A DNA stretch of 64,000 bases from Diabrotica undecimpunctata (taxonomy: Eukaryota; Arthropoda; Insecta; Coleoptera; Chrysomelidae), in the NCBI RefSeq assembly GCF_040954645.1, contig NC_092808.1:84823389-84887388 (forward strand). Reading direction: 5' to 3'. The translations under genes were made by a program, and so were the position numbers. Shown here piece after piece: positions 13,678 through 59,648 of this stretch (within the stretch, counting starts at the first letter, position 1; each line of letters starts with the position of its first letter). The notes below the pieces were generated by a model. It did no database searches. It was not told the origin of the DNA and worked only from the letters and a program-made list of their open reading frames with translations.

Positions 13678-16240
13678 ATGAGTTCCAAAAATTTATATTA
13701 CATTAACGATGCTACCAACACTTTTAAACTTTTAATCGACACAGGTGTTGGAATAACTGTTTTCAAAGAAAACACAGCACGCAATTATCATAATAGATTT
13801 CCTGAAAACGTTACTATTCAAGGTATAACCGATCAAAAATTGTTAATAACAGAATCTGTCCTGATTCCCTTCACTGACGATAATCCTCACAAAGTCTTTA
13901 TTTTCAATTTAAACATTGATTTCGGTGGCATAATAGGCCTAGACTTTCTAGATCATTATGAATGCGTAATAGATCTTAAATCCCGATAGTTGCATACAAA
14001 TTTTAAAACTGTCACCCTTCACAAAGTAGGACACGAGACAAACACACCTCCTAAAGACAAAACACCGACACACCCTACAGAAACAAGACAAAACGAACCT
14101 AAAATAAAAATTAAATCAGATTCTAAATAGGAATCAAATTTAAAATATCAAAACCCTATAAATGAAAAATATACTATCGTAAAAAACCGAGATCAAGACA
14201 AAAATCTTAAAAGACCAGAGAGAAAACGAATAAAAGGAAAAAACAGAATTACCATTGACAGCCGGACCGAACAAATATGCAGACTAAAATGCAACTTATC
14301 AAATACAGATGCCATACTATCAGCTCAAGAAATAGAAAAAGTTAGATTACCTCATGGATTAGTCCATGTAGATGAAAATGGAGAATTCTTAACTTCCGTA
14401 CTAAATGCTAATGCTATGCCGAAGACAATCAAATTTTCAGACATTTTAATCTAACCTTTCAACAATTCGGAGACAATCTTATCCTACAACGGAAATGATT
14501 TTGAAGAACCCGTAGTAGATAGAAGACGAATAATTAAAGGACAACTAAGAATTGATCATCTAAATTGCGAAGAACAAGAACTAATTCTAGATATATGTTC
14601 TGAATACGCAGATATATTTTATGTGGAAAAAGACAAACTGACCTTCACAAACGAAATCAAGCACAAAATCGAAACAAACAACGCTAAACCTATCTTCACT
14701 AAATCCTATAGATATCCTCAAATACATAAGGAAGAGGTAAAGACGCAAATTAATAAAATGTTAGAAGAAGGAATAATCCAGAAAAGTGTCTCGCCCTGGT
14801 CGAGTCCAGTCTGGGTCGTACCGAAGAAATTAGATGCGTCAGGAAAACAAAAATGGCGAGTTGTCATTGATTATCGAAAACTCAACGAACTCACAGTACA
14901 AGACCGTTATCCTCTACCACAAATATCAGAACTATTGGACCAACTAGGAAGATGCCAATACTTCACAACACTAGATTTAGCGTCTGGATTTCACCAGATT
15001 GAAATCGAGCCACAAGACATCCAGAAAACGGCCTTTTCTGTCGAAAATGGACATTACGAATTTGTCCGCATACCATTCGGACTAATGAATGCTCCATCTA
15101 CTTTCCAAAGAGTAATGGACAACATCCTCTTAGGAATACAAAACGAAAGATGCTTAGTGTATATGGATGACATAATTATCTACTCACCCACTATTCATGA
15201 TCACATGTTACGACTAACAGAAGTTTTTAAAAGGTTACGAAAACCAAATTTAAAAATACAGCCAGACAAGTGCGAATTTTTAAGAAAAGAAGTAGCATAT
15301 TTGGGCCACCTTGTAACAGAAAATGGTGTAAAAACAAATCCAGCTAAAATATCTTGCATCAAAAACTTCCCGGAACCAAAGAACACCAAAGAAATAAAGT
15401 CATTCTTAGGCTTAGCCGGTTACTATAGAAGATATATTCCAAATTTTGCCAAAATTTCTAAACCACTTACGAAACTACTTCAGAAAGACGTACCTTTTAT
15501 TTTTAATTCTGATTGCAAAGAAGCCTTTAACGAACTAAAAAATATTTTAACTTCAGATCCAATACTTATATATCCCAATTTTGAGGAACCATTTTTACTA
15601 ACTGACGCTAGTGCATTCGCGATTGGAGCTGTTCTATCGCAAGGCCCTATTGGAAAAGATTTACCCATAGCTTATGCCTCCAGAACATTATGCGGTGCCG
15701 AAACAAAATATTCGACTATAGAGAGAGAACTATTAGCTATTGTATAGGCAGTCAAACATTTGAGACCATATTTTTTTGGCCGAAAATTCACCCTGATTAC
15801 AGATCAACGACCCTTTACATGGCTTTTCTCGATAAAAGATCCCGGAAGCCGATTAGCGCGTTGGCGCCTAAAACTCGAAGAATACAATTATAAAATAGAA
15901 CATCGCGCAGGAAAAATAAACAGAAATGAAGATCCCCTTTCAAGGATAAAGATTAACCATTTCAAGGATTGTGCAAACTTTCAATCAAAAATCTCATTAC
16001 ATGCATCGAATAAAGATGACACGGAAACTCAAGAAAACGAAGACGATGATGAAGAAAATATAGAAAAAATGTCCGAAGAACTTGACAAGTTTATCGAACT
16101 GTATAGAACTAAGTCAATAATCGATTATTCTAAAATTGAAACATCGAATACGGACTTATTAGACAAATCCAACAAAAATATTGGCATACAAATATTACAT
16201 TTTTTTGGCAAAATAAACTTGAAGAACTCCACGAGAAAAT
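13678..16240 (+). pseudogene. Errantivirus-type Pol: protease, reverse transcriptase, RNase H
   Basis: The protease (13678-13989) shows LLIDTGVGIT, with the catalytic D-T-G, and later IIGLDFLD. The reverse transcriptase occupies 14623-15747 (374 residues), with WRVVIDYRKLN, LDLASGFHQIE, the FGLMNAPSTFQRVMD block and the catalytic YMDD. RNase H begins TDASAFAIGAVLSQ and continues past an in-frame TAG at 15745 into 15760-15950 (LITDQRPFTWLF). All parts are in one frame but are broken by stops at 13987 and 15745 and in the linker. It is inactive. This part of Pol would copy genomic RNA into DNA in the cytoplasm. Confidence 0.9.
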
Positions 16241-16241
16241 A

Positions 16242-17527
16242 ATGAATGACATATTCGAAGAAAACATGGAATATAGTAACCGAAAAATTAATATTGTACA
16301 CAGCAAAACTGTAAAAGATCGAAAATATTTTATTATACCATTACCGTTTGATCCCGAACGAGTAATATCACATTTGTTTCTTGTACTTTTTGCAAATAAA
16401 GATCAATTCGATGAAACAAAAATATATTGTGTCGAAAATAATCTCGAACTACCTATCCTAGAAATATTTTCTTACATTTTTGCTGACAAAGAATTAAAAT
16501 TAAGAATCTGTCAAAATATAATTAAAACAGCCAGCGAAGATGAAATCCCTCAAATTTTAGATCATTACCATTGCGGTAAAAACAACTTACATCGAGGAAT
16601 AAACGAAACTGTCAGAAGAATAAAGCAGAAATACAATTGGAAGAATTTAACAAAAGATGTAGAGAAATTTGTAAAAGCATGTGAAATTTGCCAAAAAGTT
16701 AAGATTTGCAGGAAAAACTTAAGTGGACCACTAGTCATAACAGAAACTCCAAAAACACCATTCGAAAGAATAAATGTGGATATATTCGAATACCCTACTA
16801 GGAACTACGCTTTAACTATTCGTGACGAATTGACAAAATTCACGCAAGCCTATCCTTTGGAAGACAAAAAGGCAGTAACAGTAGTCAAGACACTCCTACT
16901 CTTTTTTCAACACTATGGAACACCACTAAGAATTCATTGTGACTGCGGTCGAGAATTCGAGAATGCTATAATCAAAGATCTATGCGAATTATACGACATT
17001 AAACTAACATTTTCTAGCGTTAACCATCCAAAATCTAATGGATCTATAGAAATCAAGCCGAGAACCCAAACGATCATCCCTTCACTATACTTCCTTATGC
17101 AATAATATGCTATAACAACACAAAGAATAAGACCCACGGTTTCACACCATATGAACTTATATTTGGGCACACTGCAAACCGACCACCAGAAACTCTATAC
17201 AATCAAAAAACACTAATGAGTAAATATATTCGAGACCTGAATAATCGCATGGAATATTTTTACAAAGTAGCCAGAGCAAAAACAGAAAGACAGAAAGAAA
17301 AGGCGAAAGTAAGATTTGACGAGAATATTTCAGAACGAAGACCTGATTTTAAAATTGGTGACAAAGTTTACGTAAAAGAATCCCAAAATAAATCAAAATC
17401 GGATAATCTTTTTAATGGACCTTTCGAAATTCAAGAAGTTTTTACAAATTCCGCAATTATCCTTAACCCCAAAACTAACCAAACCTCTAAAGTAAATTTT
17501 GACAGACTCAAACCTTATTTTGAATAA
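16242..17527 (+). pseudogene. Errantivirus-type integrase
   Basis: The zinc-binding HHCC module is visible (HYHCGKNNLHRG ... CEICQ, about 16565-16695). The core has the first Asp in NVDIFEY, the second in HCDCGREF and the Glu in NGSIEIK. The C-terminal part (17216-17527), with GDKVYVKE and FNGPFEI, lies in another frame. The frame also changes against RNase H near 16240. Integrase inserts the cDNA into the host genome; this copy cannot make an intact one. Confidence 0.85.
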
Positions 17528-17545
17528 TTTTCCTTTACAGATTCT

Positions 17546-19382
17546 ATGGACTCCTTCCTATCGTCCAATCCCAAATTCTCCTCACTCCAATTAATAACAC
17601 AATTGGAATATTTTTTTGTGAAAAAGGAACTATACGAATATCTAACGACAAATGGACTTTACTTGTTTAAAAAGAATTATTACCTATCAAAACTACAATA
17701 TCCAATAATGACAGAATTTTGGAAAAATTTATTAACGTGGATACACCGAGAAAACTTGCCTTTCAAGCCGAAGTATAGACACATGTTAGTCTGCTAAAAC
17801 AAATCTCAAACTCCGTTAATTTAAAATATAAAGAAATAACCTCTGACACAGTACCTTATAATAAACGCCTAAAACGCGGTTTATTAAATGGTATTGGAAC
17901 AATCTGGAAATCTATTACTGGAAATTTAGACGCCTCTGATGGCGAATACTTTAATAAATGTATAAATAAGATAAATTCCGATGAAACTCAAATTGAAAAT
18001 TTTCTAAAAAATCAAATATCTTTTACCACTTCAGTTATAAGAACTTTCAACAATACAATTCAAAAATTGCAAATAGACGAAGAAACTTTTAACAAAGACT
18101 TAAAAAATATGGAGCCTACACTTCTGGACATTAAAAATGACATCTTCTTTTACCAAGCACAATTACAAATACTAGATTTATGTGAGTCCTTAATGGAAAG
18201 CTACGTATTTTTAGAAAATTATTTAAATGATATACTAAATTCTATCGCCTGCAAATTCTACATAGTTCTATTATTTCGCCCATAGACTTAATGGGCGCAT
18301 TAAAAGAAATCTCACAGTCATTACAAAATATCGTATTGCCTCTACCCACTTATATGTCAAATATAGCTCAGTATATTGACATAATAAAACTGCAAGCTTA
18401 TCAGCTTAATTCAAAAATTGTTTTCGTCCTCGAAATTCCGTTAGTTGATCCCGAAATATGCACCTTGTATCAATTATATTCAATACCAATATTAGATAAT
18501 CAAACTGGTTTTCATCATATACTTTCAACTGTTCATAAATACATAGCGCAAGATGATGATTTAATTTCATATGTTTTACCCATGGACACCGAAAAATGCA
18601 AACAAATCAGTCAAAACCAAAGAATGTGTACAGACATTCTTCCGTATCCCATAGACACAGATGCTATATGTGAAGCCCAGCTTTTGAAACCTCTCAGCAA
18701 CTTACCAAAAACTTGCCAGATGTCCATGCTCTTGGCACAAGGTTACAATGTACAAGAAATTGACCGAAATTTATGGTTACTAACCATTTCCGATCCATTA
18801 CCAGTAACAATCAAATGTGCAAGAAAAGACGTCACTACACAAATAGTCAAAACAAATTCAATCTTAAGATTAATTCCCGAATGTATTGCATTCATCGGCA
18901 GTACCAGAATTCATGCTAGAGACCAAATTGAGAAATATACAAATATCACGTATAGAAGTCACCCAGTTAACGTACCCTACAGATGCTGTGACCATTTTGA
19001 GACAAAGAGTCACCTATCAAAATTGAAACTACTAAAACTCAGTAAGATCAACGTAGATGACTTAAATATTGCACAACACAAATTGGACCAATATTCAGAA
19101 GAACTGGACCATATTATGAGCCAATCATTTATTGAGGAACATCTACCCTTATTCACTATATCAACCTTATCCCTGAATATTATCCTAGTTATCTTATATC
19201 TTTTCTGCAAATACCGAACCAAAATATTCCCAAAAATTGCAATCTTCTTGTACCAGGATCAGCCTCCTACTTCATTACCACGCAGAAATTCCATTAGACA
19301 AAAACTTCAGGGCTTAGCCTCCTTCAGAAGAAGACCCAATGTCCAACAAGAAAGCGAAGCAGAAACACCAATTACTCTGTAA
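17546..19382 (+). pseudogene. Errantivirus-type envelope glycoprotein
   Basis: The frame is open in three pieces: 17546-17797, about 17782-18285 and 18291-19382. The furin-like cleavage site RLKR (17866-17877) is followed at once by a Gly-rich start resembling the conserved fusion-peptide region of this family. A hydrophobic segment near 19145-19215 (LSLNIILVILYLF) is the transmembrane anchor, and a short basic cytoplasmic tail follows. Several Cys are spread over the middle. Frame changes near 17795 and 18255 break it. An env gene distinguishes errantivirus-type from ordinary gypsy elements. Confidence 0.85.
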
Positions 19383-22029: not shown

Positions 22030-23190
22030 AACATAACCTTCTATGAAATGGAAATAGCTATAGAACTATCAAAGAATATGAAAGCAACCAGTCCAGATGA
22101 AATTCCCAGAAAAATTATCAAACTTTTTGATGATAAAGGCAAACATTCCCTTTTAAATCTCTTCAATAAAATATACGAAACAGGCCATATACCAAAAGAC
22201 TGGCTACTGTCAACATTTGTAATGATATTGAAAAAATAAACGCTAAACAATGTAGCGATCATCGTACTAGCAGTACTCAAAAGTTTCTTAAGAATACTGC
22301 ATTCAAGAATTTACAACAAAATAGAAGTACAACTAAGTGAAACACAGTTTGGTTTCAGAAACAACCTTGGAACCAGAGAAGCATTATTTAGTTTGTAGGT
22401 TTGGGTTCAAAGATGTAGAGATATAGAACTACCAGTGTATATGTGTTTTATCGACTTTGAAAAGGCCTTTGACCGAGTTACCCGCGACAAACTGATGGGT
22501 ATCTTGAAACAGGTGGGAATTGATGATTAAGACCTCCGTAACATCAAAAATTTATATTGGCATCAATGTGCAAACATACGAACGGGTCAGAATACGACGA
22601 AAGTAGTAGAAATACGACGTGGAGTGAGGCAGGGGTGTATTTTATCACCTCTAATTTTTAGTATCTACTCCGAGTTTATTTTCAAAGAAGTCTTAGATGA
22701 AAATGCAGGCATTAAAATCAACGGGATTAATGTCAACAATCTCAGTTACGCAGATGATGTGGTACTGATTGCATCCAATGAAAAAGAGTTGCAAATACTT
22801 ATAAACAGGGTACCCGAAACATGTGTTAAATATGGGCTAAAGCTTAATACGTTTAAGACAAAACTTATGGTTGTTAGAAAGACAAAGTTACAACCGATTA
22901 ACATCAGAGCGTATGGAATAGAGTTAGAAAAAATGCACAATATCACATATTTGGGCGTCAATGTTAATGATAACTGGGATATAAGCAAAGAAATATGAAT
23001 TCGCATTGAAAAAGCCAGAGTTGCCTTCTGTAACATAAAGACAATTCTGATTAGAAGAGATATTACATACTTAAAATACATGTTGCATCCATTAACTAAA
23101 ATCAGATTAATACGCTGCCACATATTATCCACATTGCTGTATGGCATGGAGAGCTGGACTCTTAGAACAACGCTAATGAAATAACTTTGA
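22030..23190 (+). pseudogene. RTE-like reverse transcriptase
   Basis: This is the best preserved RT of its type in the first half of the window. The blocks run SKNMKATSPDEIP, QFGFRNNLGTREALF, CFIDFEKAFDRV, RRGVRQGCILSP and the catalytic YADD (LSYADDVVLIAS), then KTKLMVV and TLLYGMESWTL. A few stops and one frame change (22239, 22398, 22528, 22996) disable it. The endonuclease is missing. RTE proteins nick target DNA and prime cDNA synthesis at the nick. A second, related tail follows immediately (23230-23665). Confidence 0.85.
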
Positions 23191-23229
23191 GATGTTGATT
23201 TACCGACGAATATTACGGATGAGGAAACA

Positions 23230-23665
23230 TAAGAGGGATTCCAATAGAAAAAGTAAAAAAATACAGATATCTTGGTACAATTATTAATGAAAATAACGAG
23301 TATATAGAAGAAATAAACATGAGAATTGGACAAGCTAGAGCAACATTTAATAAGATGAGAAAAGTATTATGCAGTAGAGAAACTCAAAATAAGAATATTA
23401 CGTTCATATATGTTTTCAGTGCTCCTGTATGGGGTGGAGGCCTGGACCTTAAAGAAAGAGGTGAGCGATCGACTTGAAGCATTCGAGATGTGGACCTACC
23501 GAAGAATATTAAAAATAAGTTGGGTAGACCGACTAACAAATGTTGAGGTCCTCAGAAAGATGACAAAGGAAATGGAAATCATGAATACGATTAAGATAAA
23601 AAAGTTACAATATCTCGGCCACGTTATGAGAGGAGATAAATATGTGTTGCTACAAACCATAATGC
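23230..23665 (+). pseudogene. RTE-like RT tail, left half, split by an LTR element
   Basis: The frame reads a KYRYLGTIIN-type block, then VLLYGVEAWTLKKEVSDRL, MWTYRRILKISWVDRL and LQYLGHVMRGDKYVLLQ. It breaks at 23665, where the gag-only LTR element starts, and resumes at 31203 with the expected next block (QGKIQGKRSIGRRRISWLNN). The 4 bases ATGC are present at both junctions. Before the insertion this was one continuous RTE 3' end. Confidence 0.8.
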
Positions 23666-23903
23666 TGTTGCCGAGAGGGGGCATTTGGGCCTGTAGGACC
23701 CATCGCCGGCTCTCCGGGCTTCTTCCTATCCCCGGAATTGGATTGGGTATTCACCATCTTTGGTTTGTCGCTGGCAGAAAGGTTAAATACCACCGCTGGT
23801 ATAAATAACAGTTCCAGTGACAAATATCTGTTATAGGTAACGGTTCCAAGGAACAGTTACAAAGTAACAGCGCAAAAATGGAAAACAGATAGGTACAAAT
23901 GAT

Positions 23904-25222
23904 CTAAGTATTCCTTGACTTACGGAAGGAATAACTTAGTAAACAAGTTAATTAAATGGTATAAAAATAAAATGCAAAGAAAAAAATGTTTCTAAGTGTT
24001 TCTTGACTTACGGAAGAAACAACTTAGGACAGAAATATAGATAAATGAAATATGTAAATGTGAGAGTAAAATATGGAAATATTTCTAAGTGTTTCTTGAC
24101 TTATGGAAGAAACGACTTAGAGTGGAAAAATAAAATACTCAAAATATAAAACGAGACATGTAAAAATGAAACAGATTATAGAAATATGTCTAAGTGTTTC
24201 TTGACTTACGGAAGAAACAACTTAGAACAAAAAATAAACAAGAGAATCAAATATAGTAAAATAAATGCACAAATATTTATAAGTGTTTCTTGATTTACGG
24301 AAGAAACAGCTTAGCGAAAAATGGAAAAATGAAATAGAAAAATATATAAGTATTTTTTTTTTAACTTACGGAAGAAAATATCTTAGATAAAATATCAGAA
24401 ATAATAATGCGATATGAAAATATTTCTAAGGGTTCTTTTGACTTACCGGAAAAGAACGACTTAGACACACAATAAAATAACAAGTCAGATATCAGAGAAA
24501 TACTTCTAAAAGTTCTTTGACTTACCGGAAAGAACTACTTAGACAAAGTACAAATCAAAATATAAAATAGAAAAAGCAAGATAAATATTTCTAAGTGTTC
24601 TTAACTTACGGAAGAAACAACTTAGGACAGAAATATAGATAAATGAAATATGTAAATGTGAGAGTAAAATATGGAAATATTTCTAAGTGTTTCTTGACTT
24701 ATGGAAGAAACGACTTAGAGTGGAAAAATAAAATACTCAAAATATAAAACGAGAAATGTAAAAATGAAACAGATTATAGAAATATGTCTAAGTGTTTCTT
24801 GACTTACGGAAGAAACAACTTAGAACAAAAAATAAACAAGAGAATCAAATATAGTAAAATAAATGCACAAATATTTATAAGTGTTTCTTGATTTACGGAA
24901 GAAACAGCTTAGCGAAAAATGGAAAAATGAAATAGAAAAATATATAAGTATTTTTTTTTTAACTTACGGAAGAAAATATCTTAGATAAAATATCAGAAAT
25001 AATAATGCGATATGAAAATATTTCTAAGGGTTCTTTTGACTTACCGGAAAAGAACGACTTAGACACACAATAAAATAACAAGTCAGATATCAGAGAAATA
25101 CTTCTAAAAGTTCTTTGACTTACCGGAAAGAACTACTTAGACAAAGTACAAATCAAAATATAAAATAGAAAAAGCAAGATAAATATTTCTAAGTGTTCTT
25201 AACTTACGGAAGAACAACTTAG
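23904..25222 (-). repeat. Array of 16 covarying hairpins in the 3' LTR
   Basis: Hairpins of 34-40 bp start at 23904, 23992, 24085, 24190, 24280, 24347, 24426, 24506, 24591, 24683, 24788, 24878, 24945, 25024, 25104 and 25189. On the plus strand each is CTAAGT-like, a variable stem arm, the loop GACTTACGG or GACTTACCGG, the complementary arm, then ACTTAG. Arms vary in pairs: TTCCTT/AAGGAA, TTTCTT/AAGAAA, TTCTTTT/AAAAGAA, GTTCTTT/AAAGAAC and GTTCTT/AAGAAC. Spacers of 30-70 bp are AT-rich and unconserved between units. Confidence 0.85.
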
Positions 25223-25390
25223 ACACAAAATACAAGAAAAATAAACAATCAAAATAATCAAATAAAATATCAAACAATCAGTACATGAACAAATATAGAT
25301 CAATGTAATATTCTAACCTGAAAAGGTCTGAATATATAATAATGCTAAAATAAAAATGGTATATAGGAAATCAGAAATAAAACAATAACT

Positions 25391-25648
25391 TAGTTGGAAC
25401 AATAATAGCACCGACTAGGTCTACAGTAGAAGAGGCAAGCTCGACTGATCGATGAGAGAAAATCTACCTGCTTTATGTAAAACAAATCCTTTGTTTTACG
25501 TAGCAAAAGTGGAATTTTCCTGCATCGAGTCAATTAGAAATTTGGATTTGGCCAAACTTGGAATTCCCAAGTATTTTGACCAATATCCAAATTCCTTGAT
25601 GCATCCAGCACGGCTGTCAGCTTCCGACCGACATGCCTCCGGAGGACA
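25391..25648 (-). repeat. Start of the 3' LTR, repeated at 30944-31202
   Basis: These 258 bp match 30944-31202 with about six differences. On the minus strand the segment starts TGTCCTCCGG and leads into AGTTATTG, the edge where the 5' LTR was later opened by an insertion. The plus-strand frame of 71 residues within it is probably fortuitous. Confidence 0.75.
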
Positions 25649-25662
25649 TCCCCCCCCCCCCC
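25649..25662 (-). promoter_or_regulatory. Polypurine tract (G13) before the 3' LTR
   Basis: On the minus strand AGA, 13 G residues and an A directly precede the LTR start TGTCC. This is the expected place and composition for the plus-strand primer of an LTR element. Nothing coding is lost between it and the Gag stop at 25803 (about 140 bp, with an AATAAA near 25693-25698). Confidence 0.7.
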
Positions 25663-25802
25663 TCTGAAAGACCTAACGGTGCTAAAAGAAAATTTATTGG
25701 TAAAAAAATCGAAAATACATACAGTGAGAAGTCCTTAACCTAAAAAAATACAATATAAATACAAATACAATACAAAAGATACAATACAACTACAATTCAA
25801 AC

Positions 25803-26603
25803 TTAAGATATATCATACTTAAAATTATAGTGGTCCAGGTGGCGTGGTGTGTTGTTGTGACGTGGGGGACGGTACTGCTGTCGCTGTTGGGGTTTATTAC
25901 TGGCGACGGTGTTCCGGCGGGTGTCTGCTTCCATTCCCTGGGCTATGGTCAGGAGGTCCTCCTCGGTCTTGGGAATGTTGACTCGTAGGCAGATCGCGAT
26001 GTCGGGTCTCCGCTGGTTTACTATGGTGATACATCTCTGGTCCTCAGGGGTGTATGGTGCAAGACGTCTGAATAAGGCTGCTTCACCATTGATGAAATCC
26101 TCCGTGGGTTCATCCTTCCGTTGATGTTCTCCATGAAGTTTCGACGTCAAGGCTGAAATCACGGCAGGGTCGTTGTATTTCCTTAGGAGACGGTCTCGGA
26201 AGGTGTCGTATGGCAGGTCCGTGTGTGAAAACTTCTGGGCCCATTTCTTCGCATCGCCGCGGAGTGAGTTGTCGATGAGATAGTCTATCCAGTTGTCCTC
26301 GTCTACGTCATATTTAGTTAGGAAATTCTCAGCTTTGGTTAGGAAGTTGAGAGGGTTTTCAGTGTCCCGGCCTGAGAATTGAGGGGGCTTCATATATGTA
26401 ATCCTGGGCTTCGGTGGCTCAGGTTGAGGCATCTGGGGTGTAGTGCCTTGAGTAGTGGATAGGGCTGTCATCGCTTGCATTAGGGCAGAGATAAAGTCAG
26501 CTGTGGAAGGCTGGCTTGAAGACGGTCCTGGTGTCGCGAGTTTGGGTTTTGTTTGTTGGGCGCCATGTTGCCGAGAGGGGGCATTTGGGCCTGTAGGACC
26601 CAT
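25803..26603 (-). CDS. Retrotransposon Gag protein (only ORF of the element)
   Basis: The 266-codon frame encodes a Pro/Gln-rich N-terminus, then a capsid-like domain from about residue 75: PPQFSGRDTENPLNFLTKAE, WAQKFSHTDLPYDTFRDRLL and KDEPTEDFINGEAALFRRL. This matches the retrotransposon Gag fold of Ty3/gypsy elements and Arc-like proteins. The tail (QQRQQYRPPRHNNTPRH) is basic and could bind RNA, but no zinc knuckle is present. The first 12-13 codons lie in the 5' LTR and the frame reads through the primer-binding site, so translation more likely starts at Met42 (26480) or nearby. The ORF is free of stops, which suggests recent activity or selection. Confidence 0.75.
   Translation of the reverse strand: MGPTGPNAPSRQHGAQQTKPKLATPGPSSSQPSTADFISALMQAMTALSTTQGTTPQMPQPEPPKPRITYMKPPQFSGRDTENPLNFLTKAENFLTKYDVDEDNWIDYLIDNSLRGDAKKWAQKFSHTDLPYDTFRDRLLRKYNDPAVISALTSKLHGEHQRKDEPTEDFINGEAALFRRLAPYTPEDQRCITIVNQRRPDIAICLRVNIPKTEEDLLTIAQGMEADTRRNTVASNKPQQRQQYRPPRHNNTPRHLDHYNFKYDIS
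26548..26565 (-). promoter_or_regulatory. Primer-binding site of the gag-only element
   Basis: Immediately after the LTR end GGCAACA the minus strand reads TGGCGCCCAACAAAC. TGGCGCCCAAC is the usual complement of the 3' end of a tRNA-Lys primer in retroelements. This fixes the LTR boundary at 26566. Confidence 0.75.
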
Positions 26604-27693
26604 CGCCGGCTCTTCGGGCTTCTTCCTATCCCCGGAATTGGATCAGGTATTCACCATCTTTGGTTTGTCGCTGGCAGAAAGGTTAAATACCACAGCTGTT
26701 ATAAATAACAGTTCCAGTGACAAATATCTGTTATAGGTAACGGTTCCAAGGAACAGTTACAAAGTAACAAAGCAAAAATGGAAAACAGATAGGTAAAAAT
26801 GATCTAAGTATTCCTTGACTTACGGAAGGAATAACTTAGTAAACAAGTAAATTAAATGGTATAAAAATATAATGCAAAGAAAAAAATGTGTCTAAATATT
26901 TCTTGACTTACGGAAGAAACAACTTAGGACAGAAATATAGATAAATGAAATATGTAAATGTGAGAGTAAAATATGGAAATATTTCTAAGTGTTACTTGAC
27001 TTACGGAAGAAACGACTTGGAGTGGAAAAATAAAATACTCAAAATATAAAACGAGAAATGCAGAAATGAAACAGATTATAGAAATATATCTAAGTGTTTC
27101 TTGACTTACGGAAGAAACAACTTAGAACAGAAAATAAACAAGAGAATCAAATATAGTAAAATAAATGCACAAATATTTATAAGTGTTTCTTGATTTACGG
27201 AAGAAACAGCTTAGCAAAAAATGGAAAAATGAAATAGAAAAATATATAAGTATTTTCTTAACTTACGGAAGAAAATATCTTAGATAAAATATCAGAAATA
27301 ATAATGCGATATGAAAATATTTCTAAGGGTTCTTTTGACTTACCGGAAAAGAACGACTTAGACACACAATAAAATAACAAGTCAGATATCAGAGAAATAC
27401 TTCTAAGAGTTCTTTGACTTACCGGAAAGAACTACTTAGACAAAGTACAAATCAAAATATAAAATATAAAAAGCAAGATAAATATTTCTAGTTAAGTGTT
27501 CTTAACTTACGGAAGAACAACTTAGACACAAAATACAAGAAAAATAAACAATCAAAATAATCAAATAAAATATCAAACAATCAGTACATGAACAAATATA
27601 GATCAATGTAATATTCTAACCTGAAAAGGTCTGAATATACAATAATGCTAAAATAAAAATGGTATATAGGAAATCAGAAATAAAACAATAACT
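26566..27693 (-). repeat. 5' LTR (3' portion) with 9 hairpins
   Basis: This part of the 5' LTR matches 23666-25390 without the 599-bp duplication. Nine hairpins start at 26804, 26892, 26985, 27090, 27179, 27247, 27323, 27403 and 27493. Single differences from the 3' LTR include unpaired decay (CTTGG instead of CTTAG at 27020). At 27693 the LTR is interrupted; it resumes at 30944. Confidence 0.8.
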
Positions 27694-27885
27694 TAAAGTA
27701 GAAACCCTCAACTAAGGTACATGTATCGCTAAAGGCGAATATACTTGATTTTAGAGGACGAGATCCTTGAAGTAATTCAGGGGGCAGTTCCCTTTTGTTC
27801 TTTCTAATGGTCCCCACAACAGTCAATCCAAATTCTTTTTTTAAAACATCTATTAAAGTAGAAACCCTCAATTTAGAAGAGTGAT
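27694..27885 (-). pseudogene. piggyBac-type transposase fragment
   Basis: On the minus strand the frame reads STLIDVLKKEFGLTVVGTIR, then KNKRELPPELL and SSIFAFSDTCTLV. This is the stretch of piggyBac transposases around the conserved GT.R.NR..lP block. A 19-bp direct repeat (containing AAAGTAGAAACCCTC) stands at 27693-27711 and 27853-27871, at both ends of the fragment. Catalytic residues are not included. Confidence 0.65.
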
Positions 27886-28533
27886 ATCATAGTTTAAACG
27901 CCGAATATCCTCAAATTTAAATGTACACAGCGGCCCTCGAAAACTGCCTGTTTTCTCGATTGCAATTTGCGAGTCCTCATAAGAAATTACAGAATATATA
28001 AAGTAGTATATTTATTTGTGCTTCTCTATAGTAGACTTGACCAGAAGTTGTCGTACAGTGTAGCCAATTCTTGTTCACAAGTAGTAATTATGGTCATACA
28101 AAATCTGTATTCTTCCACGCAGCGATTATTACCGTCATAAAAATACAAAAAAACCTGATTTTTTCAATAGTAAAAATTAAGCACAAAATTGTAATGAAAT
28201 AAATTTTATTTATATGTTCCGTTTCGTTACATATTTAAATTTATAAAATAAAACTCGATATTTTAAAACAATATTTTTTAATCGTTTGGCAACTTTGGAA
28301 TTAGCGACGGAACTCCGTTTCAATTCAGATCCACAGAAAGCCGTTAAACTAGTTTTTGTCGAGCGAGTGCCCATCAACAATAGTTCATTATATTGGCGTT
28401 TCTGAGGGTAGGGTATTTTATGCGATAAGTTTGTGTTATTAATAAAACGTGTTATTGATAATACGAGTGTTATACTTTGTCGTTTTATAGTAAATTTTTA
28501 GTTATATTCTGTGATTATTTGGTTTGAGTTTTA
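27886..28533. other. Unassigned DNA between piggyBac and mariner fragments
   Basis: I see no gene here. It may contain the 5' flank and terminal inverted repeat of the mariner-like element, but I could not match ends by eye. Confidence 0.35.
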
Positions 28534-29823
28534 TTGGAGTTGGACGAAAAACCGAGTTGTTCCAAGAGAAGACTGCAAAATTCTGATGTTGATTCTAAAA
28601 ATGAAATGCCGCAAAGGAGACGGAAAATGTTAACGTCCGAAGAGAAGGTAATAATACGAAACGTTTATGAAGGAATTGTCGGCAGAAAAATGGAATTAAA
28701 TGTTAGCCAAGCGGTCGACATTTGTAGCAGTTTAACAAAAGTATCCGTTAGCTGTATTTATCGTGTACTTAAAAATACATCGGAAAATAAAAAGCAAGAA
28801 AAAGGTAAAACTAGAGGTAGGAAAAGCATTGTTTTGGATGACGAGACAAGGAATATTATACGTCGAAAAATTCATTCATTTTATTTTCGGAGTGAAATTC
28901 CAACACTGAAAAATATTTCTCAAGAGCTCGAAAACGATGACTCCTTACCCAAGATATCTCGTAGAGTTTTACCCAGGACCATGCGTGAAATGAACTTTCG
29001 ATATGTAAAACTCAACAGAAAAAGTATGCTATTAGAAAAAAATAAAATTATTGTGCGGAGAAGAAAATATTTAAAAGAAATACGCAAAATTCGCAGCACT
29101 GGACGCAAAATATGTTATTTGGATGAAACCTGCATTAACCAAGGTTGGAAACGGTCATACAGTTGGAAAAGTTTGGCAAGATTTAAATGTCAAAAGTAAA
29201 CGCCAAGCATTTATAGAAGGCTGATATACAGGATTAAAAGCTCCATCAGGAAAGGGACGGCGTTTAATCGTCACCCATATAGGAAGTGATACAGGGTTTC
29301 ATGATGATGGTTTTCTTCAATTTGAGTCGAAAAAAACAGGTGATTATTAAAGAAATTGAAAGGGAGGATTCAAGAATGGCTTACAGAAAAGGGGATTGCA
29401 TACGAAGAATCAATGCTCAAAATTTAGCTACTTGACATTGCACGGTTAAAGAAAATTGAATATCTTAAATATGCTGTAGATGAAACTGCAAAAGATTATG
29501 GTGTCAAAGTTCTGCATCTACCACTTTATCATTGCGAACTTAATCCCATTGAACTTATCTGGGAGCAAGTGAAAGGAGAAGTAGCACGCAATAACAAAAC
29601 GTTCAAATTAAACGAAATTAAGAAACTTTTGATTCAAGCAATCCTCCATGTAACTCAAGAGAAATGGGCTAAATGTATAGGCCACATAATTAAAGAAGAA
29701 CATCGTATGTGGGAACTTGACACTCATATCAAAGTTTTACTAGAGCCAATTATAATTACACCAGGTGGTGAAGATAATGACAGCGATAGCAGCACTGCAT
29801 CTTCAGGTTTAGACAGCGAATAA
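28534..29823 (+). pseudogene. Tc1/mariner-like DDE transposase
   Basis: The N-terminal 221 residues (28534-29196; no ATG at the very start, first in-frame ATG near 28605) form a helix-turn-helix region with a basic linker (TRGRKSIVLDDETRNIIRRK) and reach the first catalytic Asp in KICYLDETCINQGW. A frameshift follows. Other frames show KGRRLIVTHIGS and GFHDDGFLQFESK, then a deletion removes the block with the second Asp. From 29455 the frame recovers with YAVDETAKDYG, LPLYHCELNPIELIWEQVKG (final acidic residue) and an acidic tail. The enzyme would cut and paste its element at TA sites. This copy is dead. Confidence 0.8.
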
Positions 29824-30225
29824 TATTTTCTAATAGTTTAATAAGAACATCAGCATAAAAAAAACCAAAAACAAAAAAAAAAACGAGAAGGACATAGTAA
29901 GTGTGTATAGTGTTAGTGTTTAAACACATCAAACATTATTTTTTATTTTGTTTTTATAGGATTTTATTTTGTTTTGTTTTATACTGTTTAAATGTTTTGT
30001 TCATTTTATTTAATAAGACAATATGGCTCTTGGCGAACACCCATTTAAAAAAAGTATCGCGCCACAAGACATACCTCTGGGATGGTGTGGAAACTGTCTT
30101 AAAATTTGTTTTAAAAAAATTTCATTGTGTAACTCTTTAAGGACGGGTCACGTCAAAAGACGTTTTAGCGTAACTTCCGCGACAGCCGGTTGGTATCAGT
30201 AAACTTTCTGCAAAATTACTTCTTT
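29824..30225. other. AT-rich 3' flank of the mariner-like gene
   Basis: Low-complexity A-rich and T-rich sequence; no gene recognised. Confidence 0.4.
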
Positions 30226-30640
30226 TTTATAGCTTTTTGTTTGTGGCATTCTATATTTTTAGAGGAATGTAGGGAATGAGCCACAAAATATTTATTCATA
30301 TATTTATTTATTGACGTTTCGATCTCTATATCCAGAGACCGTTTTTAATTATACAAATGATAGTACTATTTATTTTCTATGGCTTTTCGCTTGTCGTTCT
30401 GTATTTTTAGAAATAATGTTGGGAATAAGCCACAATATATTTATTCAAATGTTTAATTTACGGACGTTTCGATCTCTATAAAGAGACCGTTTTCAAACAA
30501 ACAAATGACAGATATATTTATTTTTCTATAGCTGCTTGTTTGTGGGATTCTGTATTTTTAGGGAGAAGGTTGGACATAAGCCACAATATATCTATTTACA
30601 TGTTTAATACATTGACGTTCCGATCTCTATTCCGTTTTTA
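30226..30640. repeat. Three tandem ~147-bp units with inverted GACGTTTCGATC motif
   Basis: Units start at about 30226, 30371 and 30520. Each has TATAGC, GTTTGTGG, CTGTATTTTTAG, GAGCCACAA or AAGCCACAA, then GACGTTTCGATCTCTAT and AGAGACCG. A reversed copy of the last block (AGAGATCGAAACGTCAAT) stands near 30745-30765. Units differ by about 20%, so the array is old. Confidence 0.7.
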
Positions 30641-30943
30641 AAGATAGAAAAAAAAAGAAAATAAACAATATAAGATTATAAAAATATATAATAATAAACA
30701 AATAAAATAAATATAACTATCATTTATATCTTTGAAAGCGGTCTTTGGATATAGAGATCGAAACGTCAATAAAAACTTGTAAATAAATATATTGCGGCCT
30801 ATTTCGAACATTAATATTTGAAAAATAAAATATAATTAACGTTAAAATAAAAATAAGTGTACGTCACTGGATTTCCAAACGGCTTTCCGCATTTCTGGGC
30901 CTTTAAACGATGACTCACTCTCTCAAATAGTGAAATTATACTA

Positions 30944-31202
30944 TAGTTGGAACAATAATAGCACCGACTAGGTCTACAGTAGAAGAGGCAAGCTCGACTG
31001 ATCGATGAGAGAAAATCTACCTGCTTTTATGTAAAACAAATCCTTTGTTTTACGTAGCAAAAGTGGAATTTCCCTGCATCGAGTCAATTAGAAATTTGGA
31101 TTTGGCCAAACTTGGAATTCCCAAGTATTTTGACCAATATCCAAATTCCTTGATGCATCCGGCACAGCTGTCAGCTCCCGACCGACACGCCTCCGGAGGA
31201 CA
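30944..31202 (-). repeat. 5' LTR (5' portion) of the gag-only element
   Basis: This is the first 258-259 bp of the LTR (minus strand, beginning TGTCCTCCGG at 31202). It is separated from the rest of the same LTR (27693 and below) by the 3.25-kb insertion 27694-30943. Joined length (259 + 1128 bp) agrees with the 3' LTR minus its duplication. The junction to the RTE tail shows the ATGC target duplication. Confidence 0.8.
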
Positions 31203-31372
31203 ATGCAGGGAAAAATACAGGGAAAACGAAGTATTGGAAGAAGACGCATCTCCTGGCTCAACAATCTGAGAAAGTGGTATAATTGCAGTTCCGTCGACTT
31301 GTTCAGAGCTGCAATCTCAAAAGTGAAAATAGCTGTGATGATTACCAACCTCTTTAGAGGAGACGGTACCTA
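31203..31372 (+). pseudogene. RTE-like RT tail, right half
   Basis: The frame continues the coding interrupted at 23665: QGKIQGKRSIGRRRISWLNN, then LRKWYNCSSVDLFRAA, ISKVKIAVMITNLF and a stop. This is the terminal block of the RTE-like ORF. Confidence 0.75.
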
Positions 31373-31389
31373 AAGAAGAAGAATTACGG

Positions 31390-31740
31390 ATGAGTTAGGT
31401 TGATCAAATGACAAATGAAATAGTTTTACACCGGATGAAAAAGGGCTATAAAATAACAAAAACAATAAAACTTCGAAAGTTACAATATTTCGGCCATGTA
31501 ATGAGACATTCAGAGAGGTACAACCTTCTACACCTCATAATACAGGTCAAGATCGTCGGAAGAAGAGGCCCAGTCCGAAGAAGAACATCCTGGCTCTGAG
31601 ATATCCGAGAGTGGTATCAAAAGACATTCGCTAATCTGTTTCGAGTTACCGTAAACAAAGGTATTATTGCCAATATGATCACCAACGTTCAAGAAGCGGA
31701 CAGGGTACTAAAAGAAGAAAAAGAAGATGTTGATATCTTG
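31390..31740 (+). pseudogene. Second RTE-like RT tail
   Basis: A related but distinct copy: KLRKLQYFGHVMRHSERYNL, then IIQVKIVGRRGPVRRRTSWL, a stop, REWYQKTFANLF and ANMITNVQEA. The tail lies directly downstream of the previous RTE end in the same orientation. Confidence 0.7.
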
Positions 31741-39393: not shown

Positions 39394-42075
39394 TTATTGT
39401 ACTATTTGTTGTTTGGGTCTTTTGTGCTTCCATCTGTGGAAAGCGTCATACCTCAATATCTCTCGCAATATGTGGTTGGGGTGGTTCTCTATCTCCGCGA
39501 ACTTTGTCCTAGCTTTTTCTTTCATTGTGTCGGTCACTCTGATTTGTTGTAGTTCTCTAAAGAGAAATCTTTCTGCTACGTATCTCGGTACGTTGACTGC
39601 TTCTCTTAGGCTGTTGTTATGTGCCGCTTGTATTTTCTTTTTTGATGTATTGCATATGTGTCCCCATGCGAGAGATGCATATGTTAGTATAGGAAGAATT
39701 ATACAATTTATTAATCTTATTTTTGTTTTCAATCTAAGTTTGCTTTTTCTTCCTGCTAGGCCTCTTATTGATGCTCTTGCCATGTTGGCTTTTTGTACTG
39801 TAGCTTCTACATGTTTGCTAAATGTTAAGCCTTTGTCTATGATTACTCCGAGGTATTTTGCTTCACTTTTCCACTCGATAGGATTGTCTTGCACAGTTAC
39901 CTGTTCTTCTGGTTGTTGGTGCCTCTTTTTGAAAAGAACAGCCTGTGTCTTTTCGGAGTTTATAGCGATTTTCCATTTTAAACTCCATTCTTCTATGTCA
40001 TCTACCGCTGTTTGTAAGTTGTTTACCGCTATGTCTACATTTCTGTGTTTGGCCGCTATCGCTGTGTCGTCGGCATAGAGGCTTAGTAGTGTACCTGGTG
40101 TTCTAGGTATGTCTGCTGTGTATATCGTATACAGTAGAGGTGACAGTACCGCTCCCTGTGGCACTCCAGCCTCCGGGTTCCCGAGTTCGGATAGGACTTG
40201 TCCTATCCGGACTCTGAAACTACGATTGCTTAAGTACGAAGAGATTAGTCTTGTCATTGCTCCGCTGTAGCCGTATCGTCTCATTTTGTAGATAAGTCCT
40301 TTATGCCAGACTCTGTCGAAAGCTTTGCTTACATCTAGGAAGACAGCTCCTGTGAATTGTTTGTCATTAAATCCAGCTGCTATGTACTCTGTTAATCTGA
40401 GTACTTGTAGCTCACTGGAGTGTTCTGATCTAAAACCGAATTGGGCTTCGGGTATTATATCTAATCTGTCTGTTTCAGCTTGGAGTCTGGCGAGTATTAT
40501 TCTCTCTACAATCTTGCTGATTGCAGGTAGTAAGCTTATTGGCCTGTAGTTTTGCGGGAATGTGCTGTTTTTTCCGGGCTTTGGTAACATTATGACATGA
40601 GCCTCTTTCCATCTGTTTGGGAATTTCTTGAATCTTAGCATCGCGTTGATAATATTTGTTAGATATACTATGGCTCTCGCTGGTAAGTATTTTAGAGCCC
40701 TGTTCGTTATTTGATCAGGACCAGGTGCTTTTTTCGGCGAGCTATTTTTAATTAGCTCGTTTATCTCCTCCGGTGATGTAGGAGGGATGATTTCGTTCGG
40801 GTTTTCGGGTCTTCCTCTTTGTCTTTCGACTTCTTCTATGAAGTCGATGTCCTCATCTGGGTGGTAATTTAATGTACACTCTCTTTCGAGAGTACTCCTC
40901 ATTACTTCTGCTTTTTCCTCTGTGGTGTAGACTATTCCGTTTTCTCCATGTAATGGAGGGATTTGCTTTCTGTCGTTTCTCAGTATTCTCTGGAGCCTCC
41001 AAATATTTTGCATATTTGGTCCTTGCTCCTCCATGTCTCTTATGTGGTTTTCCCAGCTTTCACTACGGTGTTGTTGTAGTGCTGTTTTGACCTCTCTGTT
41101 TAGCCTATTTGCTCTATTTTTGTCTGCCTGGTTCCTTGTCCTTCTCGCTGTCTGCTTTGCTCTGTTCTTTTCCCTTATTAAGTCTTTTATTGCTTGTGGT
41201 ATATCCTTAAATCTTCCCGTGTGCATTTCTACTTCCTCTTCTGTAGTGCTGTTTCTGAGTGCTTGTTGGATGATGTTTTCCAACTCTAGGACTCTGTCTT
41301 CTATTTCTCGTGGGTTGTCTATCACCGGAACTATGTTAATTCCAGTGCTCACGAGTCTTTTAAAGTTTGTCCACTTTGTTTTCTTTTTAACTCTTTTGAT
41401 TGTACTTTCTTCTTCCCACGTTCCTAGTTCTAATAGGATGGGGTTGTGGTCCGTTGTGCCTTCGTTTAATGTTTGTATTTCTGTTTGTAGTCCTAGGTTT
41501 CTTGCTACTACAATGTCTATGTGTGTAGGAAGTCCGTTTCCTGGGTAATGCGTTGGGTCTGTGGGGCCCATTGCCATAACGTCGTCATTATTTTCTATGT
41601 ATGTGTTTAGTAGTCTTCCGTTTCTGTTCGTAGCTCTGTCGTTCCAGTTTGGGGATCTTGCGTTTAGGTCTCCTATTATGATTGAGGGTTCGTTGTTTAG
41701 GAACATATTTAAGTCGTCTTCAATCAGTAGGTCTTGTGGTCTTACGTAGGCGGAGGTAATTCTGACTTCTCCTTGCCTCATTTGTACTCTTATTGTTGTT
41801 GCTTGCATAGTATTTAGTTGTGGTGTTAGAATTCTGATGTGACCTATGCCTTTTTTCACTAATATTGCTGTGCCACCTGATCTTGCTGTGTTGTCGTTCC
41901 TGTATATGTCGTAGCCTGGAAACTTGATGTTGATGTTGTTCGTGAGCTTTGTTTCCTGTATTGCCACGACGTCCATTTCATATCTATTGACCAGTTCGTC
42001 CAGTATATTCTGGTTGGTCCTTATGCCTCCTGGGTTCCAGGAGCCTATCCTCAAGTATCCCCTGTTTGCTTGCAC
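39394..42075 (-). CDS. Jockey ORF2: endonuclease and reverse transcriptase
   Basis: The 893-codon frame starts with an apurinic-type endonuclease (residues ~10-225): SWNPGGIRTNQNI, AIQETKL, IIGDLNARSPNWND and the TDHNPILLEL block. The reverse transcriptase (about 450-750) has KAPGPDQI, NYRPISLLPAISKIVERIIL, FLDVSKAFDRVWHKGL, GVPQGAVLSPLLYTIYTAD and the catalytic YADDTAIAA. A Cys/His-poor tail with YLGVIIDKGLTFSKHV and ILTYASLAWG follows. Length and order agree with Jockey ORF2. The frame begins at GTG overlapping the ORF1 stop (TAGTG); the next in-frame ATG is at residue 34, inside the endonuclease. The protein nicks DNA and reverse-transcribes the element at the nick. Confidence 0.92.
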   Translation of the reverse strand: MQANRGYLRIGSWNPGGIRTNQNILDELVNRYEMDVVAIQETKLTNNINIKFPGYDIYRNDNTARSGGTAILVKKGIGHIRILTPQLNTMQATTIRVQMRQGEVRITSAYVRPQDLLIEDDLNMFLNNEPSIIIGDLNARSPNWNDRATNRNGRLLNTYIENNDDVMAMGPTDPTHYPGNGLPTHIDIVVARNLGLQTEIQTLNEGTTDHNPILLELGTWEEESTIKRVKKKTKWTNFKRLVSTGINIVPVIDNPREIEDRVLELENIIQQALRNSTTEEEVEMHTGRFKDIPQAIKDLIREKNRAKQTARRTRNQADKNRANRLNREVKTALQQHRSESWENHIRDMEEQGPNMQNIWRLQRILRNDRKQIPPLHGENGIVYTTEEKAEVMRSTLERECTLNYHPDEDIDFIEEVERQRGRPENPNEIIPPTSPEEINELIKNSSPKKAPGPDQITNRALKYLPARAIVYLTNIINAMLRFKKFPNRWKEAHVIMLPKPGKNSTFPQNYRPISLLPAISKIVERIILARLQAETDRLDIIPEAQFGFRSEHSSELQVLRLTEYIAAGFNDKQFTGAVFLDVSKAFDRVWHKGLIYKMRRYGYSGAMTRLISSYLSNRSFRVRIGQVLSELGNPEAGVPQGAVLSPLLYTIYTADIPRTPGTLLSLYADDTAIAAKHRNVDIAVNNLQTAVDDIEEWSLKWKIAINSEKTQAVLFKKRHQQPEEQVTVQDNPIEWKSEAKYLGVIIDKGLTFSKHVEATVQKANMARASIRGLAGRKSKLRLKTKIRLINCIILPILTYASLAWGHICNTSKKKIQAAHNNSLREAVNVPRYVAERFLFRELQQIRVTDTMKEKARTKFAEIENHPNHILREILRYDAFHRWKHKRPKQQIVQ

Positions 42076-43838: not shown

Positions 43839-44365
43839 AATCGCGTGGGGTGGAAGTCCTAATCTTTGGAGGAAAGCTTATTTTTTGACCGTCTGACCCG
43901 TTGTCAGCACGGCTTCTGGGTGCCACCCAGTACCTTTACTCGGAAGTTCACGCTCTAGGCAGAACTAGAGTGGGATCCGCTTGAATTTCTTACCTCCCTG
44001 ACCTTGGGGCCGTGTCTGCCAGGTGTAATTTCTAAAATATTACACCTCACAGTGTCATCCCAATCGTAGTACAGGAAGTATCCCGACGGGCTAAGCCCGT
44101 TTACTTTTTCACTTGCCTATGCCTTGATTTTGGCCTCCGTGAAGATTCGATTAATACAAATCTCCCCGGTTCAGCTTTGTCTCGGCATAGGCTTTTGCCT
44201 CTAGTGGCCTCGGCCGCGGCTAACGCAAGTCTCCGCTCTGCCGTGCTTACATTCACGGCACAGACTGATAAGTCCGGCTTCGACTCAACGCTGCAGCTCC
44301 TCGGCGGTCTTCAGGTGTCGCTTCTACTGCACGTCCGTACTGTTCAGCGGCTGACGCTGAACTGA
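43839..44365 (-). promoter_or_regulatory. Jockey 5' leader, presumed internal promoter
   Basis: About 525 bp of GC-rich DNA precede the ORF1 ATG on the minus strand. Jockey-type elements carry an internal polymerase II promoter in this leader. It contains a palindromic patch near 44080-44100 (GACGGGCTAAGCCCGTTT). The 5' boundary is judged from the sharp drop in GC near 44365. Confidence 0.45.
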
Positions 44366-59151: not shown

Positions 59152-59648
59152 ATGTCTACACAAGTATCTACATTTCAATTTTCCGTTGAATCTTTCAACC
59201 AGTCTGCCACCAAATGGTCCAGGTGGGTAAAGAGGCTGGAAGGTGCTTATAAGGTATTTAAAATTCCAGACGAAATGAGATTACCTTATCTACTACACTA
59301 CATGGGTTCTGAGGCCTACGACACCCTATGCGACAAGTTAGCCCCAGAAGTCCCGGAAGACAAGTCATACGACGACATTGTGAATTTAATGGATAATTTT
59401 TACAACACTGCACCCCTGGAAATTGCAGAAATCTTCAGATTCCAATCAAAAAGGCAAGCCGAAGGAGAAACAATACAAGAATACCTTCATTCACTACAAA
59501 AGTTGTCAATTAACTGCAATTTCTCTACATATCTTAAAATGCTATAAGAAACCAATTTGTTTTTGGCCTACGATCGAAAAGAATACAAGCTAGACTTCTA
59601 GAATCAAAAGGACTGGACCTAGATAGAGCCGTTGAGATTGCCACAAGC
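59152..59648 (+). pseudogene. Gypsy Gag (capsid region), one frameshift
   Basis: From the ATG at 59152 the frame reads STQVSTFQFSVESFNQSATK, WVKRLEGAYKVFKIPDEM, LLHYMGSEAYDTLCDKL and FRFQSKRQAEGETIQEYLHS. This is the usual insect Gag capsid of K02A2.6-like gypsy elements. At about 59540-59548 a one-base loss gives a stop (59545). The frame beyond (LESKGLDLDRAVEIATSMEA) leads directly into the zinc-knuckle region at 59811. Gag forms the particle in which the RNA is reverse-transcribed. Confidence 0.85.

Follow-up and report, generated by a model that had tools for sequence, protein, structure and literature searches.

Arrays of covarying, bulged stem-loops in an AUG-poor leader of a Ty3/gypsy retrotransposon family of the beetle Diabrotica undecimpunctata

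A 64,000-nucleotide stretch of the Diabrotica undecimpunctata genome (contig NC_092808.1, positions 84,823,389 to 84,887,388; hereafter the window) harbors a retrotransposon flanked by long terminal repeats (LTRs), whose sense is on the minus strand and whose two LTRs each carry an array of hairpins (Table 1). The element extends to position 31202, because a 3.25-kb transposon splits its 5' LTR. Within an LTR, about 200 nucleotides (nt) separate the LTR start from an initiator-like TCAGT, a further 225 nt or so lead to the first hairpin, and the array is followed by 146 nt and the gag ATG. The gag ATG lies inside the LTR, past the last hairpin, and the gag frame crosses the primer-binding site TGGCGCCCAAC, which we take to be of the tRNA-Lys type. 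Both the LTR start and the initiator, a sequence prediction, were found in 17 of the related loci fetched from the genome (see below); 15 of these have them 200 nt apart, and L012 and L034 186 nt apart. The window copy is a gag-only, non-autonomous LTR element: gag is the sole long frame in element sense in the 917-bp internal region, and no pol frame is present.

Sixteen hairpins were counted in one array (23904-25222) and nine in the other (26804-27525), spaced 67-105 bp from start to start, just as a first-pass annotation made from the sequence alone had listed them. As seven of the sixteen derive from a 598-bp tandem duplication, the longer array goes back to nine ancestral units. The junction of this duplication lies within the loop and 3' arm common to hairpins 2 and 9, and in the hairpin fused at the junction (24591-24625) the arms have lost part of their match; this hairpin is an example of the effect of unselected recombination. 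A covariance model trained on 10 window hairpins recovered all 25, together with six opposite-strand images of members, and gave no further match in the 64-kb window at E-values up to 5. To define the unit sequences, wherever the two LTRs differ the copy consistent with the remaining units was used. In sense RNA a unit then reads CUAAG, U, the bulge, an inner arm, CCGUAAGUC, the second inner arm and ACUUAG, with a loop of 9-10 nt that is either CCGUAAGUC or CCGGUAAGUC. The inner stems measure 6-8 bp, so that the unit length varies between 34 and 39 nt, and the whole stem counts 12-13 pairs when folded in antisense and 12-14 when folded in sense. The outer stem CTAAGT/ACTTAG had been described as fixed; it is exact only in five of the nine units (1-4 and 9), while its core TAAG/CTTA is kept in all nine. 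A single bulged base separating inner and outer stem, not mentioned in the earlier description, sits on the 5' side of the stem in nine of nine units, taking the form of a 1x2 internal loop in unit 7. The spacers measure 31-69 bp. Their reported lack of conservation holds further than 10 nt from the hairpins, where 39 of 200 shuffles were as alike, but not for the untrimmed spacers (0 of 200), because hairpin-adjacent bases such as AAATATTT recur. No Rfam family matched between 23600 and 31300 at E-values up to 1, and a hammerhead-type ribozyme was dropped as a candidate for want of such a match; no match to the array was confirmed in viral contigs or in bacterial and archaeal contigs. An extra hairpin, with GUAAC..GUUAC around GUUC-CUUG-GAAC, lies past the array, ahead of the gag ATG, in both LTRs (23837-23860 and 26737-26760, minus strand).

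The hairpin pattern has 3183 exact matches in the 1.74-Gb genome, against none for a reversed control. The 100 matches listed all lie on one contig (C1) in 37 clusters, all of which were fetched as 34 loci; given 100 listed matches in 37 clusters, the genome may perhaps hold a thousand arrays. Arrays were detected by the covariance model in all 20 loci of the first batch and by a looser loop count in all 34. One locus (L001) has the layout LTR-gag-pol-LTR, with gag, protease (PR), reverse transcriptase (RT), RNase H and integrase (IN), a pol order PR-RT-RNaseH-IN, and 10 hairpins in one array against 9 in the other, while another (L002) has gag and protease and arrays of 8 and 8. The unequal arrays of L001 imply that array size can change during or after transposition. 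By its TG..CA LTR ends, primer-binding site, polypurine tract, target-site duplication, Ty3-type Gag and pol order, the family is one of Ty3/gypsy LTR retrotransposons. Since L001 bears pol and every fetched locus bears an array, the window element seems to be a deletion derivative of a complete Ty3/gypsy family, and the array a family trait; the term "gag-only" of the first-pass annotation is thus true of the window copy but not of the family as a whole. The window Gag scores 27.7 bits against Ty3_capsid, under the cut-off of 29.1, which is exceeded by the Gag of L001 (33.9), P0001 (30.3) and P0002 (40.2). Gag further resembles Arc capsid proteins (E-value 4e-8). In a set of 5.8 billion proteins, two relatives of Gag were found at an E-value of 0.001, both labelled Diabrotica undecimpunctata; the RT-RNase H part has 3687 relatives, and none among the 120 listed exceeds 54% identity. 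The L001 Gag had no zinc-finger match in Pfam at an E-value of 0.001. A structure prediction of Gag reached a mean predicted local distance difference test score (pLDDT) of 41.9 and was not used.

The hairpins differ between units in a paired manner, as had been claimed for the inner stems. The plus-strand inner arms fall into six types, ATTCCTT, GTTTCTT (four units), ATTTTCTT, GTTCTTTT, GTTCTTT and GTTCTT, and the arm is exactly complementary to its partner in nine of nine units. When the 3' arms were reassorted among the nine units, full complementarity arose in 9 of 100000 draws, and among the six arm types in 1 of 720. In a neutral simulation, nine perfect stems with at least five arm types were obtained in none of 2222 runs at each of six divergences. 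Covariation was further scored on a genomic set comprising the top 150 among 182 model hits from 20 loci (49 distinct hairpin rows), in an alignment that was fitted to the covariance model and hence leans towards structure. Here 95.1% of cells were paired versus 89.2% after shuffling, 43 cells were changed on both sides versus 12.0, the covariation score was 0.225 versus 0.119, and both-sided change was seen in 7 of 13 pairs (0 of 500 shuffles in each case); partners slid by 1-3 columns paired at 48-61%. Among the window hairpins (11 of 25 used, 10 distinct rows), 95.0% of cells were paired versus 88.7% shuffled (0 of 500). Parsing yielded 162 hairpins across the window and the 20 loci, where the model had found 25 and 182, respectively, and 943 of their 972 inner cells were Watson-Crick pairs. 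Rare variants are mostly unpaired decay and the paired differences occur between slots, so that the independent paired events are modest in number, perhaps six to eight. When a 941-nt stretch of the window 5' LTR copy was folded in sense, six of the nine hairpins had a mean pair probability above 0.7. A comparison of genomic copies, proposed in the first-pass annotation as a way to disprove selection on structure, was thereby carried out on part of the copies and did not contradict it.

Diversity was determined over 34 copies (33 fetched loci and the window 5' LTR) and amounted to 0.042 in stems, 0.047 in loops and 0.101 in spacers. Because the loci had been found through intact hairpins, every hairpin matching the search pattern was masked in each copy, after which hairpins still stood at 0.059 versus 0.100 for spacers (0 of 10000 permutations). 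Window slots 5-8, which lie outside the search pattern, had a diversity of 0.049 (2 of 10000), and the inner stems, on which the pattern places no demand, 0.033, three times below the spacers (0 of 10000). The masked outer stem alone reached 0.083 and the loop 0.070, so that most of the contrast with the spacers is due to the inner stem. After insertion this constraint is lost: hairpins change like spacers, and they do so unpaired. Between the two LTRs of the window, differences numbered 7 of 313 in hairpins, 10 of 405 in spacers and 14 of 662 in the remaining flanks, and inspection of the list revealed no stem compensation among the seven hairpin changes. Change that is paired between units and unpaired after insertion supports the earlier proposal of selection on a folded single strand.

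The leader between the predicted start site and gag is poor in AUG. In the nine-unit LTR, the sense leader contains one ATG in 1093 nt versus 12.8 expected from dinucleotide shuffles (0 of 2000), and this lone ATG belongs to a two-codon open reading frame (ORF), ATG TAC TGA, upstream of the array. The array spacers of the window hold no ATG versus 6.0 expected (3 of 2000), and CAT, the opposite-strand ATG, occurs 14 times versus 12.4. When both strands of the 64 kb were scanned in 504 overlapping leader-length segments, the five segments with one or two ATG all overlapped the leaders of the element; the sole other segment with at most three was a T-rich stretch (43251-44343). From 33 of the 34 loci, 34 genomic leaders were obtained; L004 was without a gag anchor, and a 1821-nt leader of L002 that exceeded the length limit (9 ATG versus 23.1) was kept outside this set. 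The 34 leaders hold 70 ATG versus 386.9 expected, each lying below all 50 of its own shuffles, with no depletion of CAT (641 versus 585.1). ATG density is 7.5 per kb in the approximately 180 nt upstream of the initiator versus 2.0 in the leader. An upstream two-codon ORF, ATGTACTGA, precedes the array (about 25286, minus strand) and is present in 27 of the 34 leaders. These features fit gag-sense transcription from about the initiator, retention of the leader in the mRNA and scanning. A leader nearly free of AUG suggests that the array sits in a scanned 5' untranslated region (5' UTR), is present as RNA in the gag mRNA and probably works as RNA; the family may thus show how a retroelement can keep a structured leader of 0.7-1.4 kb scannable by purging AUGs. 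An internal ribosome entry site was dropped as a candidate, as an AUG-poor leader would be unnecessary for one.

Paired differences, together with a fixed loop and bulge, suggest that the folded strand is recognised. We infer that transcription would begin near the predicted initiator, placing the array, as consecutive RNA stem-loops, within the long 5' leader that genomic RNA and gag mRNA share, and that ribosomes would scan this leader to the gag ATG beyond the last hairpin. Each loop with its bulge would bind one protein molecule, and the array would so allow many-fold binding; the likeliest protein would be the element's own Arc/Ty3-type Gag. An array occupied by Gag would mark the RNA for packaging and might help to switch it from translation to capsid assembly. 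We tentatively favor this reading, in which a stem-loop row with fixed loop and bulge binds the element's own Gag many-fold for packaging. Of the roles considered in the first-pass annotation, RNA packaging and protein binding are favored by the AUG-poor leader, which points away from removal of the array by splicing. The variable unit length of 34-39 nt is also easier to reconcile with a hairpin than with a rigid dimer bound to duplex DNA. Since the L001 Gag is without a zinc-finger match, a structured RNA target in many copies could offset weak binding by Gag. It is conceivable, if rather doubtful, that a tandem row of bulged stem-loops, variable in copy number, would serve as a packaging ladder and translation switch in one, with AUG-poor linkers kept open for scanning, and with similar reserve such a ladder might be regarded as a new kind of retroelement leader. 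To our knowledge, RNA choice by Ty3/gypsy and Arc-like Gag proteins is poorly known. In this family a multivalent candidate site with well-defined loop and bulge occurs naturally, in many copies and differing array sizes, and together with 3183 matches and an Arc-like Gag this makes the RNA choice of Gag directly testable.

Several observations weigh against this reading. Array size varies from 5 to 12 loops per leader by the loose count, which implies that no fixed number of hairpins is needed. Ancestral changes in the outer stem abolish or weaken pairing: units 5 and 6 lack pair 1, and units 5-8 have a changed pair 6, which in some of them is rescued by sliding of the bulge. Further pair types in the genomic set were unexceptional (173 of 500), two of five measures were weak for the window rows (both-sided pairs 21 of 500, pair types 37 of 500), and units 2, 3 and 9 had pair probabilities of only 0.11-0.25 in the 941-nt sense fold. 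As to the strand, wobble-type mismatches (11 G-T versus 10 A-C on the plus strand) do not favor the sense strand, the single ancestral wobble (unit 5) favors antisense, and plus-strand RNA is predicted to be more stable by 0.4-2.6 kcal/mol in nine of nine units. The fold is nearly strand-symmetric, and since the wobble test leaves the strands unseparated, an effect through folded minus-strand complementary DNA could also be envisaged. In the window leader AAT is even more depleted than ATG (11 versus 29.3), and within the window alone the contrast between U3 and leader (2 ATG in 202 nt versus 1 in 1093) gave a Fisher value of 0.065. A second recurrent AUG, ATGCTAAGT, occurs in 21 of the 34 leaders, so that the leader is not wholly AUG-free.

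The structural facts would be identical if the stem-loops bound a host RNA-binding protein and served translational or export control of the gag mRNA instead of packaging, which we regard as unlikely but deserving of attention. A bulge and a fixed loop in a 5' UTR are the layout of translational operators such as the iron-responsive element, and the two-codon upstream ORF in most leaders would agree with such control; however, these operators are usually present in fewer than 5-12 copies, and neither a pointer to a specific host factor nor an Rfam family match was obtained. It is improbable that the array consists of protein sites in double-stranded DNA, in the manner of the gypsy insulator or a palindromic enhancer, with the hairpin as the mere dyad symmetry of dimer sites. 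Precedents are given by the Su(Hw) array of the gypsy insulator (PMC2374998) and the palindromic boxes of Sirevirus elements (PMC2829016). Binding to a duplex would nevertheless need neither paired and length-changing arms, nor an asymmetric fixed loop, nor a kept bulge. Moreover, no Su(Hw)-like core within two mismatches was found in either array, and the 3' LTR and the inner part of the 5' LTR gave one loose match each, at the start of gag.

Quite improbable, too, is a fold without function, in which template switching during reverse transcription copies arm onto arm and recombination resizes the array. Reverse transcriptases do switch templates, the LTR pairs have 16 versus 9 and 10 versus 9 hairpins, with 8 and 8 in a third element, and one duplication junction lies inside a hairpin. 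Yet correction of one arm by the other would be expected to remove the bulge, whereas all nine units retain it, and would leave unexplained why the unpaired loop is conserved, why hairpins are less diverse than spacers and why the spacers are AUG-poor. Hardly credible is the idea that the loops act as 5' splice sites, either decoys or regulated ones, which the hairpin hides or exposes. GTAAGT is what the loops read in sense, and it does occur eight times in the 1093-nt leader versus 0.4 in shuffles, but the whole loop is conserved beyond the donor alone, a C precedes GTAAGT in six of its eight units, and AUG depletion across the array would be unnecessary if it were spliced from the gag mRNA. 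Small-RNA hairpins were dropped as a candidate, since stems of 12-13 bp are too short for usual Dicer substrates.

For the favored reading, in which the array is bound by Gag, the closest counterparts in action would be the multiple packaging signals of RNA viruses, while in layout the gypsy insulator and the Sirevirus palindromes come closest. The gypsy insulator lies outside the LTR, unlike the beetle array. The first-pass annotation knew of no LTR feature of this form; both layout counterparts come near to it, but differ in the features tested, and no covarying hairpin array in an LTR was reported in the titles and abstract openings searched, a coverage outside which most subscription journals lie. 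The gypsy insulator has 12 Su(Hw) sites in 340 bp of AT-rich sequence and thus shares with the beetle array the repeated short sites, the AT-rich composition and a 5' UTR location in an LTR retrotransposon of an insect; it differs in that a zinc-finger DNA-binding protein binds it and in that its consensus is not readable as a stem-loop (PMC2374998). Sirevirus elements carry 8-32 palindromic boxes, many in the LTR, and resemble the beetle array in this dyad symmetry, location and variable number (PMC2829016); structure prediction and small-RNA mapping have been applied to these palindromes (PMC10760457). The Sirevirus boxes are short, most of them combining a CGG-CCG core with at most a small loop, and compensatory change is not described in the text available. 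They are drawn upstream of the TATA box in the LTR; the beetle array follows a predicted initiator, at which the AUG-poor zone begins, and would thus lie downstream of the start site. Sireviruses are moreover Copia-type elements, whereas the beetle family has a Ty3 gag and, in L001, RT before integrase. In the portions covered, both layout counterparts are discussed as DNA-level or silencing-related features. Dispersed packaging signals, as in MS2 and other viruses, are proposed to consist of several stem-loops with a common recognition motif for the coat protein, and the same review suggests them for Gag-like proteins (PMC6281560). The beetle array likewise has several stem-loops with a common loop and variable paired stems. 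In single-stranded RNA viruses such signals are scattered over the genome, whereas the beetle array is a near-regular tandem row of putative Gag sites in a leader. Retroviral encapsidation signals likewise lie in the 5' leader, between cap and gag, in a genomic RNA that doubles as mRNA, but they comprise a few different stem-loops and no array of repeated units.

Table 1. Features of the hairpin-bearing element, with coordinates in the window.
Feature	Position	Strand	Remarks
3' LTR	23666..25648	minus	1983 bp, 16 hairpins; LTR-LTR matches, TG..CA ends
Hairpin array, 3' LTR	23904..25222	minus	16 hairpins: 9 ancestral units, 7 doubled
Tandem duplicate (598 bp) of 24006-24603	24604..25201	minus	one mismatch
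Predicted 5' leader, 3' LTR copy	23758..25446	minus	start site to gag ATG; 2 ATG in 1689 nt
Predicted initiator TCAGT, 3' LTR copy	25444..25448	minus	TATA-like ACATAAA ~30 nt upstream
Internal part of element	25649-26565	minus	917 bp
Polypurine tract, run of G	25649..25665	minus	adjoins 3' LTR
gag reading frame	25803..26657	minus	in-frame stop near start codon in this copy
Primer-binding site TGGCGCCCAAC	26555..26565	minus	adjoins 5' LTR
5' LTR, inner part	26566..27694	minus	9 hairpins; LTR-LTR matches
Hairpin array, 5' LTR	26804..27525	minus	9 units
Insertion splitting 5' LTR	27695-30943		3249-bp DNA transposon, TA target duplication
5' LTR, outer part (U3, predicted start site)	30944..31202	minus	98% match to 25391-25648
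Target-site duplication ATGC, left	23662..23665		
Target-site duplication ATGC, right	31203..31206		

The element is lodged in sequence resembling the reverse transcriptase of a long interspersed nuclear element (LINE), with an RVT_1 match at 22531-22998 (surroundings 22531-23661 and 31207-31400), and joining the ATGC flanks to an empty site restores the LINE-like reading frame. The 3249-bp insertion in the 5' LTR contains a DDE_3 fragment (29428-29823) of 25.2 bits, under the cut-off of 28.6, as well as a 151-bp tandem repeat (30223-30630). A gypsy-like element with long open frames was recognised by eye at 59538-63075 (plus strand), and the hairpin covariance model found no array in it. Long open frames at 14455-19379 (plus strand) presumably represent an errantivirus pol followed by an envelope-like protein (KR, then GLLNGIG), and frames of 908 and 600 codons at 39397-43877 (minus strand) are LINE-like in appearance.

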